A stretch of 64,000 nt of DNA. It comes from Kribbella capetownensis. GTDB lineage: Bacteria; Actinomycetota; Actinomycetes; Propionibacteriales; Kribbellaceae. The stretch lies in NCBI RefSeq assembly GCF_004331485.1, contig NZ_SJKD01000011.1, forward strand, positions 62,001-126,000, given 5' to 3'. This document shows positions 8,997 to 27,839 of this stretch, piece after piece. A model generated the notes under the pieces. It had not been told where the DNA came from and did no database searches. It worked only from the letters and a program-made list of their open reading frames with translations. Positions within the stretch are counted from its first letter, which is position 1, and each line of letters begins with the position of its first letter. Position numbers and translations under genes: made by a program.

Positions 8997-9111
8997 CACC
9001 CACCCCGTACCCGTCCAGACGCAGTTCACCGTGGTACCTGCGGGTAGCGGTTCGGTTGCGGGCGGGGTACGTAACTACCCGGAGAGCCGGATGTTGTCTA
9101 GGTTGTCTTGC

Positions 9112-10146
9112 ATGGATCGCCCCCGCCTGTTCACCCCCGACAGGAACAGCCTCCTCAGACCCGACGGAATGACCCGGCGTAGCCTGCTCGGTCTGGGGGC
9201 CGCGGCGGTCGCCGCGATGGCAGTGCCCGGATGCTCCCGCGGCCGCTCCGACGAGCCCGCACCGGACGGGCCGGGCATCTTCGCGACCGGCAACAAGGGT
9301 GGCGTCTACAACCAGTTCGGCATCGACCTGGCCAAGCTGATCAGTGAGGTCACCGGCGTCACGCTGCAGCCGATGGTCACCGGCGGTTCGGTCGACAACC
9401 TGATCAAGGTGTCCAGCCAGAAGGCCGACATCGGCTTCTGTACGTCGGACACCGCGCTGGCGGCGTACGAGGCGACCGGGATGTTCGCCTCCGGGAAGCT
9501 GAAGTTCAGCGCGCTGGCCCGGGCGTACGACAACTATGTGCACGTGGTCGTGCCGATGGCCTTCAAGGGCCAGGAGCTGAAGGCGCTCGAGGGCAAGGTG
9601 GTCAGTGTCGGCCAGCAGACCTCCGGCACCAGGATCGTCGCCGACCTGATCCTCAACACCGCCGGGGTGAAGGTGACGAAGCGGTTCCTCAGCCTGGAGG
9701 ACTCGGTCAAGGCGCTGGAGGCGAAGGCCGAGGACCCCAAGGCGAGGGGCGGCATCGACGCGCTGATCTGGAGCGGCGGCGTGCCGACCGAGCCGATCGG
9801 CAAGCTGCAGGACTCGATCGGCTTCCGGCTGCTCGACATCGGCAACGTCGCTCAGACGATCGCGCTCAAGGAGTTCGGCGGCTACGTGGTGTCCGCGATC
9901 CCGCCGTCGGCGTACAAGCTGGCCAGCTCGGTGCCGACGCTGGCGATCCCGAACTACATCGTGGCCAAGCCGAACCTGTCCGACTCGTGGGCCTGGTGGA
10001 CGGTCAACACCCTGTTCCGCCGCCAGAACGATCTGATCGCGGCACATCCGGAGGCCGGCGCACTCGACCCGCGCTCGGCGATCGCGACGATGCCGATCCC
10101 GCTGCACCCGGCGGCCGAGCGCTGGTACCGCGAGAACCACATCTGA
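9112..10146 (+). CDS. TAXI-family TRAP transporter solute-binding protein (first copy)
   Basis: 344 residues. Residues 20-44 form a twin-arginine type lipoprotein signal (MTRRSLLGLGAAAVAAMAVP then GC), so the protein is probably Tat-exported and lipid-anchored. After it come the TAXI hallmarks FATGNKGGVYNQFG and DIGFCTSDTALAAYEATG. It binds an unknown, probably carboxylate, substrate for the fused permease at 12333. The start at ATG 9112 is chosen because TAGGTT ends 7 nt upstream (leaderless pattern); ATG 9169, right at the signal, is the alternative. Converges with the sensor kinase gene. Confidence 0.85.
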   Translation: MDRPRLFTPDRNSLLRPDGMTRRSLLGLGAAAVAAMAVPGCSRGRSDEPAPDGPGIFATGNKGGVYNQFGIDLAKLISEVTGVTLQPMVTGGSVDNLIKVSSQKADIGFCTSDTALAAYEATGMFASGKLKFSALARAYDNYVHVVVPMAFKGQELKALEGKVVSVGQQTSGTRIVADLILNTAGVKVTKRFLSLEDSVKALEAKAEDPKARGGIDALIWSGGVPTEPIGKLQDSIGFRLLDIGNVAQTIALKEFGGYVVSAIPPSAYKLASSVPTLAIPNYIVAKPNLSDSWAWWTVNTLFRRQNDLIAAHPEAGALDPRSAIATMPIPLHPAAERWYRENHI

Positions 10147-10171: not shown

Positions 10172-11545
10172 TCAGGCGTCGTAGTCGTCGATCAGCGGGA
10201 CGCGGACCTCGATCACCAGGCCGCCGCCGATCGGCGGACGGGCGACGACGCGGCCGCCGACCCGGGCGGCCTCGGAGCGGACGATCGCCAGCCCCAGACC
10301 GGTGCCCGGCATCTCCCGGTGGTGCGCGCTGCGCCAGAACCGCTCGCCGACCTTCTTCAGGTCCCGCGAACCGAGGCCGAGCCCGTGGTCGCGGACCGAC
10401 AGCACCACTTCGGTGCCGTCCCGGGTCACCGACACCTCGACCGGCGGAGCGCCGTACTTGGAGGCGTTGTCGAGCAGTACGTCGAGGATGTCGTCCACCT
10501 CGAGCTCGGGACCCACACCGCCCGGCACCATCTCGCCGATGATCAGTTCCATGTCGTCGGCGGCGTACACGGCCTTCCAACCGACCAGCCGCTCCTTCAC
10601 CGCCTGGGCCAGGTCCAGCGGCTCTTCGTTGCCCTCGGCATCGGCTCCGGGGCGGTCCGAGCCGGCCAGCCGGGACAGCCGCTGGACGATCCGGCCGAGC
10701 CGGTCGATGTCGCTGAGCGCGAACCGCGCGGTCGGCGACAGCCGGGACAGGCCCTCGATGTGGATCCGCGCCGAGGTCAGCGGCGTCCGGAGCTGGTGCG
10801 AGGCGTCGGCGACGAACTCCCGCTCACGCTGGCGGGCCTGGTGGAGGCTCAGCGCCATCGAGTTGAAGCTGTCGCCGAGGCGGCGCAGCTCCGGTGCGCG
10901 TCCGTCGGTGGACACCCGGGTGTCCAGTGCGCCGCGGGTGATCTGGTGGGTGGCGTTGTCCAGGTCACCCAGCGGCCGCAGCACCCAGCGGGTGATTGGG
11001 CGGACGATGCCGATGATGATTGCGCCGATGCTGATCAGCAGTCCGCCGAGGAGCAGCAGCAGACCGCGCTGCACCTGGTCGCGGGCCTCCTCGGTCGGAA
11101 CCCGCAGGACCGCTGCACCCAGCACGCTGCCGTTGTTGACGACCGGACGGGCCACCACCATCTCGCCGGACCGCCACGGCCACAGGGCCGGCGGCTCGGG
11201 CGGCAGGCGGCCGGCCAGGGTGCTGTGCAGGGCGGCCTCGAGGTCAGGCTCGTCCACGTCGACGCCGGACACCGAGGTAGCCACGACCCGTGAGTCGACG
11301 TCGACGACGAACACGGGCGTGTTGTAGAGCTCCTGGTACCGGACCGCCATCTCACGCAGGTTGGCGATGTCACCGGACTGCAGCGGCGCCTCGGCCATGG
11401 CGGCGAACCAGTCCGCGTCGTTGCTGCGGGACAGGAAGAGGGTGCGCGACGTACTCGTGGCGATGTAGTTGGCCAGCGGTACGACGGCCACGATGGCCAG
11501 TGCGACGACCATCGGAACGAGGGACTGCAGCAGTCGACGGCGCAA
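10172..11545 (-). CDS. Sensor histidine kinase of the TAXI-TRAP locus
   Basis: 457 residues. TM helix at about 12-30, an extracytoplasmic region of roughly 120 residues, a second TM (LLLLLGGLLISIGAIIIGIV), HAMP, then the H-box FVADASHQLRTPLTSARI, an N-box (LLDNASKYGAP) and G-boxes (DHGLGLG, GTGLGLAI). The start is a TTG at 11545, three bases after the regulator stop and the first start possible in this frame; ATG at codon 12 is an alternative. Co-transcribed with the response regulator. Its position suggests it senses the TRAP substrate. Confidence 0.9.
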   Translation of the reverse strand: MRRRLLQSLVPMVVALAIVAVVPLANYIATSTSRTLFLSRSNDADWFAAMAEAPLQSGDIANLREMAVRYQELYNTPVFVVDVDSRVVATSVSGVDVDEPDLEAALHSTLAGRLPPEPPALWPWRSGEMVVARPVVNNGSVLGAAVLRVPTEEARDQVQRGLLLLLGGLLISIGAIIIGIVRPITRWVLRPLGDLDNATHQITRGALDTRVSTDGRAPELRRLGDSFNSMALSLHQARQREREFVADASHQLRTPLTSARIHIEGLSRLSPTARFALSDIDRLGRIVQRLSRLAGSDRPGADAEGNEEPLDLAQAVKERLVGWKAVYAADDMELIIGEMVPGGVGPELEVDDILDVLLDNASKYGAPPVEVSVTRDGTEVVLSVRDHGLGLGSRDLKKVGERFWRSAHHREMPGTGLGLAIVRSEAARVGGRVVARPPIGGGLVIEVRVPLIDDYDA

Positions 11546-11548
11546 CGG

Positions 11549-12214
11549 TCAGTCCGAACCCAGGCGGTAGCCGACGCCGCGGATGGTCTGCACGAGCTCG
11601 GGCCGGCCGAGCTTGGCGCGCAGGCTCGCCACGTGCACGTCCATCGTGCGCGACGAGGCTTCGAAGACGGACTGCCAGGCGTACAGGGCGACCTGTTCGC
11701 GCGGCACCACCCGGCCGTGGTGGGCGGCCAGCACAGCTAGCACGTCGAACTCCTTGCGGGTCAGACTGATCGGCTTGTCCGCGACCTGCACCGTCCGGGC
11801 CTCGATGTCCACGGTCAGGTCGCCGACGGTCACCCGGGGGCGGGGCTGCAAAAGGCCGGTACGACGAAGTACAGCATCGATGCGGGCCAGCAGCTCGGAT
11901 ATCGCGAACGGTTTGACCACATAGTCGTCCGCGCCGCTGCGCAACCCGCGCACGCGGTCGGCGGCCTCACCGCGCGCGGTGACCGCGATCACCGGTACGT
12001 CGGACACCGTCCTGATCTGCCGGCACACGTTGATGCCGTCCCCGTCGGGCAACCCGAGGTCCAGCAGGACCAGGTCGCCGGGGTCCGCCGCGAGGGCGTC
12101 CGCGGCCGTCCGGACGTGCGTCACCATCAGGCCGTAGCGCCGCAACGCGGGTATCAGGGCATTGGCGATATCGAGATCGTCCTCGACCAGCAGAATCCGT
12201 ACCGCGCCACTCAT
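11549..12214 (-). CDS. OmpR-family response regulator of the TAXI-TRAP locus
   Basis: 221 residues. Receiver domain starts at ILLVEDDLDIANAL, the phospho-acceptor Asp is in LVLLDLGLPDGDG, and the conserved Lys is in DYVVKPF. The C-terminal winged helix ends RTIRGVGYRLG. ATG 12214 is chosen since it begins directly at the receiver; upstream starts lack homology. Divergent from the TRAP permease over 118 bp that hold a 12-bp palindrome, so direct control of the permease operon is likely. Confidence 0.92.
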   Translation of the reverse strand: MSGAVRILLVEDDLDIANALIPALRRYGLMVTHVRTAADALAADPGDLVLLDLGLPDGDGINVCRQIRTVSDVPVIAVTARGEAADRVRGLRSGADDYVVKPFAISELLARIDAVLRRTGLLQPRPRVTVGDLTVDIEARTVQVADKPISLTRKEFDVLAVLAAHHGRVVPREQVALYAWQSVFEASSRTMDVHVASLRAKLGRPELVQTIRGVGYRLGSD

Positions 12215-12332: not shown

Positions 12333-14396
12333 ATGACTGTCGGTATCGGTACGGGGGGCGGCTTGACCGCGCCCTCCGAGGAAGAACTGGCCGAGTACGA
12401 GCAGGAACGCCCGGCTCGGCGGCTGAGGCCTGCCCTCGACCTGGTGATTTCGGTCTGGTGCGCCATCGTCAGCGTCGGCGTGCTCTGGCAGGTGTTCTTC
12501 CCCTTACCACAGGGAACGCAGTTTTACCTGGTGATCTTTCTCGCAGCCGTTCTGCCGATCACGCTGCTGTGCTACCGGGGCTGGAAGGTCCCGGCGTTCC
12601 TCAACCCGTTCAAGAACCGGGCCACCGACGACCCCGGGATCACCGACTGGATCCTGGCCGTGGTCGCGCTGGTGGTCTGCGTCTACCCGCTGATCGACTT
12701 CGACGGTTATCTGGAACGGCGCCAGGCTCCGACGACTCTCGACATCCTCGCCGGGACCGTCCTGCTCATCCTGTTGCTCGAGGCCTGCCGTCGTACGACC
12801 GGCTGGGTGCTGCCGGTCTTCAGCCTGGTCTTCATCGCCTACGCCTACTACGGCGGCTACCTGCCCTACACCTGGTCGCTGGCGCACCAGGGCTTCAACT
12901 TCGACGCGATCATCGCGCAGTTCACGATGGGCACGGCCGGGTTCTACGGCACACCGTTGAGCGTCGCGGCCAGCTACATCGTGCTGTTCACCATCTACGG
13001 CGCGGTGCTGGACTACTCCGGGGCCGGCAAGTTCTTCATCGACCTGTCGTTCGCCGCCTTCAAGCGCAGCCGGACCGCGCCCGGTCGCACGGTCACCTTG
13101 GCCGGCTTCCTGCTGGGCAGTGTGTCCGGCTCGGGCACGGCGACCGCGGTATCGCTCGGCACGGTGTCGTGGCCGATCCTCCGCCGGGCCGGCTACCCGC
13201 CCGAACCGGCAGGCGGAATGCTCGCCGCCTCCGGCATCGGCGCGATCCTGTCGCCGCCGACCCTGGGCGCGGCCGCGTTCATCATCGCCGAGTTCCTGCG
13301 CGTCTCCTACCTGACCGTGCTCGGGTACGCCGTCATCCCGACGATCCTGTACTACCTGGGCATCCTGCTCGCGATCGAGATCGACGCCCGCCGGCACGGG
13401 ACGAAGTCGGCCGAGACCTCTTCGGACTCGGCACTGCGGTTGTTGCTGCGGTTCGGGTACCACTTCCTCTCGCTGTTCGTGATCATCGGCTTCATGGCGG
13501 TCGACGTACCGCCGTTCAAGGCCGTGGTCTACGCGGTGATCATCCAGTTCGGGTTGTCGTTCCTGGATCGCGAGCACCGGCTGACCGCCGGGCGGCTGTT
13601 CAAAGCGCTTGCCCAGGGCACCCGGTCGGTGCTGCCGGTGGCGGCGACCTGTGCGACCGCCGGCATCATCGTCGCGGTCACCACGCAGAGCGGACTCGGG
13701 CTGAACCTGGCCGAGATCATCGTCAGCGCGGCACACGGCCTGACCGAGAACCACACCGTGGTGCTGTCGCTCACCGTGCTGCTGTCGGCGATCGCCGTAC
13801 TGATCCTGGGCCTGGCGGTGCCGGTGACGGCCTCGTTCATCATCGCCGCGGTGATCATCGCGCCGGCGTTGACCCAGCTCGGGGTGACGCAGCCCGAGGC
13901 GTACATGTTCATCTTCTACTACGCCGTACTGTCCGAGGTGTCGCCGCCGACCGCACTGGCCGCGGTCGCGACGTCCGCCATCACCGGCGGCAAGGTGATC
14001 CCGACGATGTGGCAGGCCTGGAAGTACACGCTGCCCGCCTTCCTGGTGCCGTTCGCGTTCGTCCTGACCGACAACGGTGCACACCTGCTCGGTCAGGGAT
14101 CGTTCGTCGGCATGCTGTGGACGCTGGCGGTGTCGATGCTCGCGGTCGCCGCGCTCGCGGTGGTGACCGGTGGCTGGATCGTGGTGGCGACGAGTTGGGT
14201 CGAGCGGTTGCTGTGTGTCCCGGCGGCCGTGCTGCTGCTTTACCTCGCGCCCGTAACCATCACGGCCGGAATCGGTTTGCTACTTGTTGCCGTCGTCATC
14301 AATCTGGTCCGGCGGCAACGCAGTTCGAAGTCTGACCCCACCCCACCATCCCGGTCAGGTGCCGCCACCCCGAAGGAAGGACCCGTCACCTCATGA
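12333..14396 (+). CDS. TRAP transporter fused permease (4TM/12TM type)
   Basis: 687 residues, almost all hydrophobic helices, matching the fused DctQM permeases that work with TAXI receptors. Signature stretches are GSVSGSGTATAVSLGTVSWP, SGIGAILSPPTLGAAAF and YYAVLSEVSPPTALAAVA. It drives Na+- or H+-coupled uptake of the ligand captured by the TAXI proteins. AGGAGGG lies 9 nt before the ATG, one of the best ribosome sites in the window. The ATGA overlap at 14393-14396 couples it to the second TAXI gene. Confidence 0.94.
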   Translation: MTVGIGTGGGLTAPSEEELAEYEQERPARRLRPALDLVISVWCAIVSVGVLWQVFFPLPQGTQFYLVIFLAAVLPITLLCYRGWKVPAFLNPFKNRATDDPGITDWILAVVALVVCVYPLIDFDGYLERRQAPTTLDILAGTVLLILLLEACRRTTGWVLPVFSLVFIAYAYYGGYLPYTWSLAHQGFNFDAIIAQFTMGTAGFYGTPLSVAASYIVLFTIYGAVLDYSGAGKFFIDLSFAAFKRSRTAPGRTVTLAGFLLGSVSGSGTATAVSLGTVSWPILRRAGYPPEPAGGMLAASGIGAILSPPTLGAAAFIIAEFLRVSYLTVLGYAVIPTILYYLGILLAIEIDARRHGTKSAETSSDSALRLLLRFGYHFLSLFVIIGFMAVDVPPFKAVVYAVIIQFGLSFLDREHRLTAGRLFKALAQGTRSVLPVAATCATAGIIVAVTTQSGLGLNLAEIIVSAAHGLTENHTVVLSLTVLLSAIAVLILGLAVPVTASFIIAAVIIAPALTQLGVTQPEAYMFIFYYAVLSEVSPPTALAAVATSAITGGKVIPTMWQAWKYTLPAFLVPFAFVLTDNGAHLLGQGSFVGMLWTLAVSMLAVAALAVVTGGWIVVATSWVERLLCVPAAVLLLYLAPVTITAGIGLLLVAVVINLVRRQRSSKSDPTPPSRSGAATPKEGPVTS

Positions 14397-15370
14397 GACT
14401 CCGTCGCCTGCCCACCGCCGCGGTGGCGTTCGCTGCTGTCTTCTCGCTGGTTGCCTGTGGCGGGCAGCGTGAACCGACCGGCTCCGGTACGGCGGCCGGA
14501 GGCCGGCTGACGATTGCCACCGGCAACACGACCGGCGTGTACTACCAGTTGGGTGGCGCGCTGGCCTCGGTGATCTCGCAGAAGATGTCCGGGTACCGGG
14601 CGACGGCCAGTGAGACCGGCGCCTCGGTGCAGAACGTGCAGGGCCTGGTGGCCGGCAACTACGACATCGCGTTCTCGCTCGGCGACACCGCGGCCGACGC
14701 GGTGAAGGGCGAGAACAGCTTCAAGTCCAAGCAGGACGTGGTCGCCCTGACCCGGCTCTACAACAACTACACGCAGGTCGCGGTCCGTACGTCGGCCGGG
14801 ATCAACTCGATCGCGGACCTGAAGGGCAAGCGGGTCTCCACCGGTTCGCCGAACTCCGGCACCGAGGTGATCGCCCGGCGGCTGCTCGAGGCCGCCGGCC
14901 TGGACCCGGCCAAGGACGTCACCGCGCAGCGGCTCGGCCTGCCCGAGTCGGTCGACGCGATGAAGTCCGGCACGATCGACGCATTGGTCTGGTCCGGTGG
15001 CCTGCCGACCGGCGGCATCACCGACCTGATGACGAGCATGGGCAAGGGCGTGAAGCTGATCCCGATCGTCGACCTGCTGCCGAAGATGCAGGACAAGTAC
15101 GGTCCGGTCTACAGTCAGGCACCGATCCCGGCGGCGACGTACAAGCAGCCGGCCGACGTGGCGACGATCATCGTGCCGAACGTGCTGCTGGTCCGCTCCG
15201 ACATGAAGGACGAGTTGGCCGAGCAGTTGACCAAGGTGCTGTACGACAACAAGGACGCCCTGGTCGCGGTGAACGCGGCGGCCAAGGACATCACGCTCGA
15301 CAACGCCGAGAAGACCGACCCGGTGCCGCTGCACCCAGGCGCGAAGAAGGCGATCGACGGTCTGAAGTAG
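14393..15370 (+). CDS. TAXI-family TRAP transporter solute-binding lipoprotein (second copy)
   Basis: 325 residues. The Sec lipoprotein signal ends LVAC with Cys near residue 22. TAXI motifs are IATGNTTGVYYQLG and YDIAFSLGDTAADAV. It is paralogous to the protein at 9112 (shared pattern ending in VPLHPGAKK versus IPLHPAAER). Translationally coupled to the permease, so it is the likeliest cognate receptor. Confidence 0.93.
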   Translation: MRLRRLPTAAVAFAAVFSLVACGGQREPTGSGTAAGGRLTIATGNTTGVYYQLGGALASVISQKMSGYRATASETGASVQNVQGLVAGNYDIAFSLGDTAADAVKGENSFKSKQDVVALTRLYNNYTQVAVRTSAGINSIADLKGKRVSTGSPNSGTEVIARRLLEAAGLDPAKDVTAQRLGLPESVDAMKSGTIDALVWSGGLPTGGITDLMTSMGKGVKLIPIVDLLPKMQDKYGPVYSQAPIPAATYKQPADVATIIVPNVLLVRSDMKDELAEQLTKVLYDNKDALVAVNAAAKDITLDNAEKTDPVPLHPGAKKAIDGLK

Positions 15371-15381
15371 TCCCTTGACCG

Positions 15382-15492
15382 CCCTCCCCCGCACACCAGG
15401 CGCAGCGGGGGAGGGTGTTGGGACCCACCTCCACACACCAGGCGCAGTGGAGGCGGGACCCGCCGGCTCCCACAACCAGGCGCAGTGAGAGC
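15382..15492. repeat. Three tandem hairpins with an almost invariant loop
   Basis: Hairpin 1: 11-bp perfect stem 15382-15392/15405-15415, loop ACACCAGGCGCA. Hairpin 2: 7-bp stem 15428-15434/15447-15453 extended by CCC/GGG across one mismatch, same 12-nt loop. Hairpin 3: 8-bp stem with one mismatch 15466-15473/15485-15492, loop AACCAGGCGCA. Stems differ in sequence but stay paired, while the loop is kept. The array sits between the TAXI stop and a separate terminator. It could be a structured RNA, a stacked terminator or a palindromic repeat element. Confidence 0.75.
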
Positions 15493-15497
15493 AGGCA

Positions 15498-15542
15498 GAC
15501 CGGGCCCGGCCCTCGGAGGCATCCGAGGACCCGGGCCCGGTC
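15498..15542. terminator. Long bidirectional terminator
   Basis: GACCGGGCCCGG (15498-15509) pairs with CCGGGCCCGGTC (15531-15542); an inner stem CCTCGG/CCGAGG caps it. Lies between the convergent TAXI and hemerythrin-like genes. Confidence 0.85.
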
Positions 15543-15551
15543 ACTTTGCGT

Positions 15552-16208
15552 CTAGTGCTGCTCTTCCTGGTCCTCCGTGATCGCGGTGCCGTAGAGGTAG
15601 TGGGACAGGGCGGAGTCGCGTTTCGGATGCACGTGGTACTTGGTCGGGATGACGCGTCCTTCGGCGCTGTCCCAGGCGCTGTCTGCCAGCCGCCACATGC
15701 GGTGCACCATCCGGCCCGCCATGCCGGTGTGCGGCGAGTACGGATGCGCCCGCGTGGGCGCGACCTCCTCGGCTTGCAGGATCTCTTCGGTCAGCGTGTT
15801 CACGTGCGAGTCGTCCAGTTGCTCACAGATCTGGTGGGTGTACGACGTCTCCAGCCGCTCGTGTTCGGCGAGCAGCCGATCGACGGACGTCCACACCTCC
15901 AGGTCGGTCAGGTTCTGCACCCGGCTGTCGCCGTACTGGCGTCCTTTCAGGAAGCGCAGTGACCGCTCCAGCTCCTTCGCGTTGCCGACGTACCTGGTGA
16001 CCAGGCTGCTGCCGTCGGGGAGCCGGCGTACGTGCGGGAGGAGGACGTCTTCGGCGGCGGCCAGGTGCTGCGCGGCGATGGCGTAGAACCAGTCGGTCTG
16101 ATGTCTGCGCTCGGGGTGCGCGGCGGCCGGGTGGTGAGCCTGGTCAGCCAGCTCACGGATCCGGGCATGTTCGTAGGTCAAGGCCAGTTCGAGCGTCGAA
16201 GCGGTCAT
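15552..16208 (-). CDS. Hemerythrin-like (HHE) domain protein
   Basis: 218 residues, helical and rich in His and Glu. The first helix YEHARIRELADQAHH and later QHLAAAEDVLLPHVRRL and LLAEHERLETSY have the His/Glu spacing of HHE cation-binding proteins. Such proteins bind a di-iron centre and are used in oxygen, nitric oxide or redox sensing. The C-terminal 90 residues are unassigned. Start ATG 16208 has GGAGG 8 nt upstream; upstream ATGs lack homology. Confidence 0.65.
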   Translation of the reverse strand: MTASTLELALTYEHARIRELADQAHHPAAAHPERRHQTDWFYAIAAQHLAAAEDVLLPHVRRLPDGSSLVTRYVGNAKELERSLRFLKGRQYGDSRVQNLTDLEVWTSVDRLLAEHERLETSYTHQICEQLDDSHVNTLTEEILQAEEVAPTRAHPYSPHTGMAGRMVHRMWRLADSAWDSAEGRVIPTKYHVHPKRDSALSHYLYGTAITEDQEEQH

Positions 16209-27777: not shown

Positions 27778-27839
27778 GAGGCGTCTGAGAACCCTGCGCC
27801 TAGTACCCCGCAGTAGGCGCAGAGTTCTCAGACGCCCTC
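27778..27839. terminator. Nested strong terminator after pit
   Basis: Outer stem GCGTCTGAGAAC (27781-27792) with GTTCTCAGACGC (27824-27835), inner stem CTGCGCCTA (27794-27802) with TAGGCGCAG (27814-27822), loop of 11 nt. It begins right after the pit TAA. Confidence 0.92.

Follow-up and report, generated by a model that had tools for sequence, protein, structure and literature searches.

Among the genomes searched, a tandem array of hairpins located behind one transporter operon is an undescribed structured element which is restricted to the genus Kribbella, and it is not a dispersed palindrome. Its hairpins display nearly the same loop throughout the genus, while the stems change in sequence and keep their pairing. 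The array is probably a 3′-UTR RNA, and we tentatively propose that a protein reads its loops and sets the fate of the transporter mRNA. The analysis was done on a window of 64,000 nucleotides (C2:62001-126000) from an 8.83 Mb Kribbella genome; positions without a prefix are counted from the first letter of this window.

Search and alignment procedures

The hairpins were tracked with R1, a covariance model of one hairpin. When whole genomes were searched with R1 and R2, scoring covered the top 17-150 first-look candidates of each genome. Alignment A1 holds 42 of 49 distinct hairpins, seven with shifted stems or odd loops having been removed by hand and L029_4042 earlier. Alignment A2 holds 37 of 38 rows (L181, with a 13-nt loop, was left out), A4 holds 41 of 43 rows (two with GTAGGCGCG were left out) and A6 holds 27 of 30 loci of the 38 genomes. 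Stem changes were also placed on a tree of the TAXI gene, in which the middle hairpin class consists of the 27 three-hairpin genomes and the branches L152 and L161 are distorted because the gene is truncated there. For the scan of tandem hairpins with the same loop, the pairs at L223, L226 and L212 were inspected closely besides the array, and the remaining pairs were assessed from the loop and arm sequences as listed.

The array and its genomic setting

The features of the locus are collected in Table 1. The permease gene is presumed to be the first gene of an operon with the TAXI gene, which overlaps it by 4 nt, and this pair is divergent from the sensor kinase and response regulator genes. 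The nearest named relative is K. pittospori NRRL B-24813 (99% over the TAXI protein). The array is placed between two converging genes, the TAXI gene and a gene on the opposite strand (15555-16208) for which no match was found in Pfam or NCBIfam. A second protein, encoded at 9031-10146 on the plus strand and convergent with the sensor kinase gene, resembles a TAXI solute-binding protein by reading of its translation.

Table 1. Hairpins of the array and neighboring genes in the window
Feature	Position	Strand	Stem arms	Loop or tip	Evidence or remark
Sensor kinase gene	10172-11545	-			own reading of translation
OmpR-type response regulator gene	11552-12214	-			domain/family profile matches
TRAP transporter fused permease gene	12333..14396	+			TIGR02123 E 1.8e-135; PF06808
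TAXI-family TRAP solute-binding protein gene	14393..15370	+			TIGR02122 E 1.4e-92
Hairpin 1	15380..15417	+	15380-15392 with 15405-15417	ACACCAGGCGCA at 15393-15404	model R1, 60.1 bits
Hairpin 2	15424..15457	+	15424-15434 with 15447-15457	ACACCAGGCGCA at 15435-15446	model R1, 55.3 bits
Hairpin 3	15462..15496	+	15462-15473 with 15485-15496	AACCAGGCGCA at 15474-15484 (11 nt)	model R1, 51.8 bits; last-type, CAC..GTG closing stem
Terminal hairpin	15498..15542	+		GGAGGCATCC at 15515-15524	possible terminator without U-run

The three tandem hairpins occupy 15380-15496, the first stem beginning 9 nt past the TAXI stop codon, and their linkers measure 6 and 4 nt. All three had been marked by the initial annotation and were found in place, and the near-invariance of their loops (12, 12 and 11 nt) was likewise as described, with one loop sequence occurring twice and its shorter form once. 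The complementarity of the arms, also claimed, is good in hairpin 1 (13 pairs) and hairpin 2 (one A.C mismatch) and only rough in hairpin 3, which has two internal mismatches. The predicted folding energies are -26.9 kcal/mol for hairpin 1 (15381-15416; z -4.42) and -18.3 kcal/mol for hairpin 2 (z -3.16); hairpin 3 folds at -13.0 kcal/mol with a z of only -1.44, 18 of 200 shuffles being equally good. For the 201-nt array region as a whole the z is -4.84 and none of 200 shuffles was equally good. With at most one mismatch allowed, 12 copies of ACCAGGCGCAG were counted in the window where 2.43 would be expected, and the three exact ones are those of the array. The distance of 9 nt from the stop codon leaves no room for a promoter of its own outside the coding sequence, and the array is therefore most simply read as co-transcribed 3′ UTR. 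A search of 14300-15700 for sigma-70-type promoter-like sites found none, although this test has little power in such a genome.

The larger hairpin which follows (-41.8 kcal/mol, z -6.42) has the stable GC-rich form expected of an intrinsic terminator. A separate strong terminator had been claimed at this place; the very stable hairpin is there, and its role as a strong terminator is unproven because no T-run stands behind it in the window, where ACTTTGCG comes next, and the terminator scan of the window does not list it. Longer T-tracts follow the hairpin in some relatives. Its tip is in place in 35 of the 38 Kribbella genomes while the stem varies in sequence and length; this invariance is partly by construction, since the sequences were collected by the tip itself (alignment A5, with 35 of 36 exact tip matches, the match of L152 lying outside the array and being dropped). 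The tip has one other occurrence in the first 1.26 Mb read of its own genome. As it is fixed and no U-run follows in the window, the tip may serve recognition as a second site and be more than the loop of a terminator.

Distribution across genomes

R1 located an array at a single place in every one of the 38 Kribbella genomes (best 150 candidates per genome), and the 3′ part of the TAXI frame lies directly upstream in all of them, with 6-71 nt between its stop codon and the first stem. Counted with looser loops, these arrays contain 118 hairpins, from one to six per genome: three in 27 genomes, four in six, two in three, one in one and six in one. The starts of successive hairpins are 36-43 nt apart, and 70 of the 80 spacings measure 39-42 nt. 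Several successive units of the six-hairpin genome have nearly the same 42-nt sequence, hence the array grew there by tandem duplication, and such alike units in one genome must be recent duplicates. The genome with a single hairpin (G031, locus L181) has a 13-nt loop and is without the terminal tip hairpin; multivalency is thus not essential everywhere.

Two genomes, G002 (L152) and G014 (L161), keep only the C-terminal part of TAXI before an array of three complete hairpins, and in G014 this remnant continues in frame from the permease. The truncation may be a recent loss or an assembly fault, or the array may not serve TAXI; its retention is also compatible with an array that persists in its own right. 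The usual downstream gene is without a match in the 1.5 kb examined in 5 of the 38 genomes and the array stays behind TAXI in these as well, so it belongs to the TAXI side.

Outside the genus, the array was found in none of the 158 other sampled genomes of the order, all 38 carriers among the 196 being Kribbella (best-scored candidates per genome). In the sample of the class, again among the best-scored candidates per genome, R1 matched in 3 of 394 genomes, namely its own and two with weak single palindromes (34.5 and 35.4 bits) of other sequence, whose loops are without AGGCGC. A set of 78 TAXI loci gave plus-strand matches in 21, which are the loci R1 was built from and which are all Kribbella-named except L044, and in none of the other 57, including the Kribbella paralogues L049 and L106. 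L106, which adjoins L050 on the same contig, is without the array. L044, from a record named Streptomyces sp. SID13031, carries a Kribbella-type TAXI gene (79%) and a complete array and is probably a misnamed Kribbella. In L056, AGGCGC was seen within one GC-rich hairpin.

Rfam 15 gave no match in the window at the gathering cut-off, and a permissive search gave sub-threshold matches only. No description of this element was found among the matches listed in literature searches, including those worded by its architecture.

Loop constraint and covariation of the stems

The loop core CCAGGCGCA is exact in 103 of the 118 hairpins and its heart AGGCGC is present in 116; the predicted loops have 11-12 nt in 112 hairpins and 9-13 nt in all. 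The hairpin classes differ, the last having mostly a CAC..GTG closing stem with an 11-nt loop and the first CGC..GCG with 12 nt. Between genomes (666 pairs from the 37 genomes with at least two hairpins), the identity of the core is 99.4% in hairpin 1 and 100% in the last hairpin, against 68.1% at four-fold degenerate sites of TAXI, 90.7% in the stem of hairpin 1 and 73.4% in the last stem. Without the two genomes with truncated TAXI (595 pairs) both cores reach 100%, the four-fold sites 69.4% and the two stems 90.3% and 73.0%, respectively.

The stems were expected to covary, and they do so across all 38 Kribbella genomes, in the paralogue-mixed alignment as well as within the hairpin classes. 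Both sides vary in 11 of the 12 pairs of the mixed alignment, whose covariation score is 0.440 against 0.199 for shuffled and at most 0.125 for slid controls. Pairs changed on both sides number 4 of 13 in the first hairpin, 6 of 11 in the middle and 7 of 11 in the last, and neither in the mixed nor in any class alignment was the score reached by any of 500 shuffles or by a slid control. Other measures set hairpin 1 less clearly apart from its shuffles, of which 107 of 500 had at least as many pair types and 10 of 500 at least as many pairs altered on both sides. Replacements of one Watson-Crick pair by another in which both bases differ number 20 on the TAXI tree (6 first, 6 middle, 8 last).

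A constrained loop on a free stem means that something reads the loop. The initial annotation had suggested recognition by a protein or an RNA, and the conserved loops on covarying stems are as this predicts; they do not by themselves separate protein from RNA.

Loop copies elsewhere and a second hairpin region

A dispersed or mobile element was considered and rejected. The loop 11-mer occurs 28 times in its own genome and so does its reversed control, and when the folds of these sites were judged by eye, matching hairpins were seen only at the three array copies; one further copy, at L023, is embedded in a GC palindrome of greater length whose loop is not tightly closed. The suggestion of a mobile palindromic element is thus not supported: the loop is unenriched, the array has one place per genome among the best 150 candidates scored, and R1 matches with E < 0.5 gave no second place in the 2.46 Mb searched, or 28% of its own genome. 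The copies which the annotation proposed to look for exist in the relatives, in all 38 Kribbella genomes, and at no other place in these 2.46 Mb. A likeness of the loop complement to the arm of the pit terminator (27794-27804, minus strand) had also been pointed out; it is one mismatch off and sits in paired arms rather than in a loop, and is treated as chance. Behind the pit gene, at 27780-27835, a long near-perfect inverted repeat was seen by eye with CTGCGCCTA and TAGGCGCAG in its arms; by the position of the motif it is unrelated to the array.

Strong hairpins with AGGCGC in the loop were counted in 1.26 Mb of the same genome. With stems of at least 10 pairs there were 10 where 8.1 were expected, and with at least 12 pairs 5 where 1.9 were expected; the latter include the array and locus B (see below), one each. 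We read this as no clear enrichment.

The strictest scan for tandem hairpins with the same loop gave 20 pairs in 2.46 Mb of this genome and 5-9 in three shuffles. Besides the array, the one convincing case is locus B (C11:790760-791130, L223:10760-11130), an apparently non-coding region of several hairpins in whose loops TGAGGAG and GAGGTG recur (CTCCTCA and CACCTC when read on the opposite strand). All 38 Kribbella genomes have locus B, which was found in none of the 158 other sampled genomes of the order (best-scored candidates per genome). In its stems 8 of 24 pairs covary, with a score of 0.116 against 0.068 shuffled that none of 500 shuffles reached and with fewer pair types than the shuffles. 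In Rfam it has sub-threshold matches only, to ar14 (E 0.009) and scr5239 (E 0.99), both on the minus strand, and it is possibly an sRNA of anti-Shine-Dalgarno type. In the first hairpin of locus B (L223:10775-10800) the loop is CAGGCGC and so includes the AGGCGC heart of the array loops; because AGGCGC is not clearly enriched in strong hairpin loops, this link is suggestive at most. The scan also met a short-unit tandem repeat (CGGTTGACC) at L212:16168-16245, which folds into long hairpins.

Comparison with known systems

RNAs of the CsrB/RsmZ type are free-standing sRNAs which titrate a protein, CsrA/RsmA, by repeated hairpins presenting one loop motif. The array is like them in its repeated hairpins with one motif that would be shown in the loop to a protein. 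It is unlike them in that its core is without GGA, that it probably stands in a 3′ UTR, and that CsrA (PF02599) was found in none of the 38 Kribbella genomes and in 3 of 14 control genomes. REP/BIME elements are palindromic units of variable number scattered between genes in many copies; the array shares the intergenic palindromic units and their variable number and differs in having one locus per genome (best 150 candidates each) with no dispersal seen.

ANTAR-target RNAs are described, in the available parts of PMC3369931 and PMC8164766, as dual hairpins bound by ANTAR proteins, with hexanucleotide loops that have A1 and G4, and as widespread in actinobacteria; the tandem small hairpins, conserved loop residues, variable stems and short linkers resemble those of the array. 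Two hairpins with a linker of 2-25 nt are given for them in the text available of PMC8164766, and the array has at least two hairpins in 37 of 38 genomes, with starts 36-43 nt apart. Unlike the hexaloops, 112 of the 118 array loops have 11-12 nt, with a conserved core of 9 nt and one to six hairpins in a row, and the array follows its gene whereas many ANTAR targets, according to the same portion of PMC8164766, lie before a gene or at its start. The s-SodF RNA of Streptomyces is, in the accessible sections of PMC3919588, another structured RNA that immediately follows a gene of an actinobacterium and may be cut from its mRNA; it has a perfect 19-nt match to its target, whereas no such partner was found for the array and repeated identical loops are another design. 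By analogy with sodF, it is possible that the array is an sRNA derived from a 3′ UTR. The array would work like the loop-read hairpin elements (ANTAR targets, CsrB-type) and yet fails their defining features.

Proposed function and alternative explanations

We propose that the permease-TAXI mRNA of Kribbella carries the array as a structured RNA element in its 3′ UTR, where one to six, mostly three, GC-rich hairpins would display one single-stranded loop with the near-invariant heart AGGCGC and a larger hairpin with a fixed tip would close the array. The stems would serve as structure only and the loops would be what is read. A so far unnamed RNA-binding protein would dock cooperatively on the repeated loops, and its docking would set the fate of the transporter mRNA by stability, 3′-end processing or translation. 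We give this proposal slightly less than an even chance. A protein is more likely than an RNA as the trans-acting partner because no long base-pairing partner is apparent, the loop 11-mer and the 13-mer ACCAGGCGCAGYG being no commoner than their controls; no enrichment of loop or anti-loop was seen elsewhere in its own genome or in the 38 genomes, as is expected for a protein partner.

It is somewhat unlikely, in our judgment, that the array is instead the body of an sRNA cut from the 3′ UTR, whose loops pair with other RNAs by kissing or as seeds, or titrate them. An architecture in which a stable terminal hairpin closes a row of hairpins would suit such an RNA, as would the array kept in two genomes with truncated TAXI and the presence in the same genomes of locus B, also with several hairpins and invariant loops; a regulatory RNA processed from a 3′ UTR, s-SodF, is known in Streptomyces from the available part of PMC3919588. 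Against it, the 13-mer on both strands is about as frequent outside the arrays as its reversed control (190 vs 179 in 38 genomes, after 92 array copies were subtracted), and the recurring anti-loop matches in the operon itself are 8 nt long and lie within coding sequence. One, GTCTGGTG (or GCCTGGTG) at 12453, falls on Val-Trp-Cys codons 120 nt into the gene and recurs thereabouts in 17 of 20 relatives; the other, GCCTGGTG (or GTCTGGTG) at 14643, is coding too and recurs in 8 of 20. In rRNA the loop matches 10 nt of 23S (9 Watson-Crick pairs and one G.U) and 8 nt of 16S. These short matches in rRNA and in the permease and TAXI coding regions are provisionally held for chance or coding constraint, and pairing by seeds of 6-8 nt may still occur. 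The GCGC palindrome, by which loops could kiss each other, is broken by CCAGACGCA and CCAGGCGTA.

An unlikely explanation is a passive one, in which the array stabilizes the 3′ end or forms a terminator of several parts, blocking exonucleases or RNA polymerase, and the loops are alike by recent duplication or gene conversion. The first, second and terminal stems are very stable, the array lies between converging genes, and near-identical copies within G037 show that the units do duplicate. However, the loops are kept across genomes whereas the stems that carry them and the neutral sites of TAXI diverge, duplication would homogenize stems as much as loops, and the terminal tip is fixed too (partly by tip-based collection); a passive role needs neither conservation.

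The proposed docking of a protein could be extended to a circuit private to Kribbella, in which a dedicated protein reads AGGCGC-type loops in the TRAP-TAXI 3′ UTR, gaining avidity by repetition, and the RNA of locus B, whose first hairpin displays such a loop (CAGGCGC) once more, is a sponge or competitor; we consider this extension improbable. If it is true, neither the RNA nor its protein partner belongs to any described family.

It is very improbable that the element acts as DNA, in which case a DNA-binding protein or a recombinase would recognize a cruciform or a single-strand hairpin: single changes to G.U and to A.C number 18 vs 13 on the TAXI tree with its two distorted branches (first 14:4, which taken alone favors plus-strand RNA, middle 1:4, last 3:5), and overall this marks no clear RNA strand, and the spacings are regular, but the array keeps to one locus behind one gene in all 38 genomes, has no other place in the 2.46 Mb, and at none of the four IMG/VR viral contigs with its 18-nt pattern does the match extend into a long stem.

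Significance

To our knowledge, the structured RNAs that follow bacterial genes have been little surveyed, and even less so in GC-rich actinobacteria. Locus B is unlinked to the array and built on the same plan, which suggests that Kribbella employs such loop displays in more than one place. The 118 natural variants of the array separate what must be sequence, namely the loop and the terminal tip, from what must be structure, namely the stems. The element is thus a ready bait for a putative RNA-binding factor and a test case for the 3′-UTR control of a nutrient transporter.
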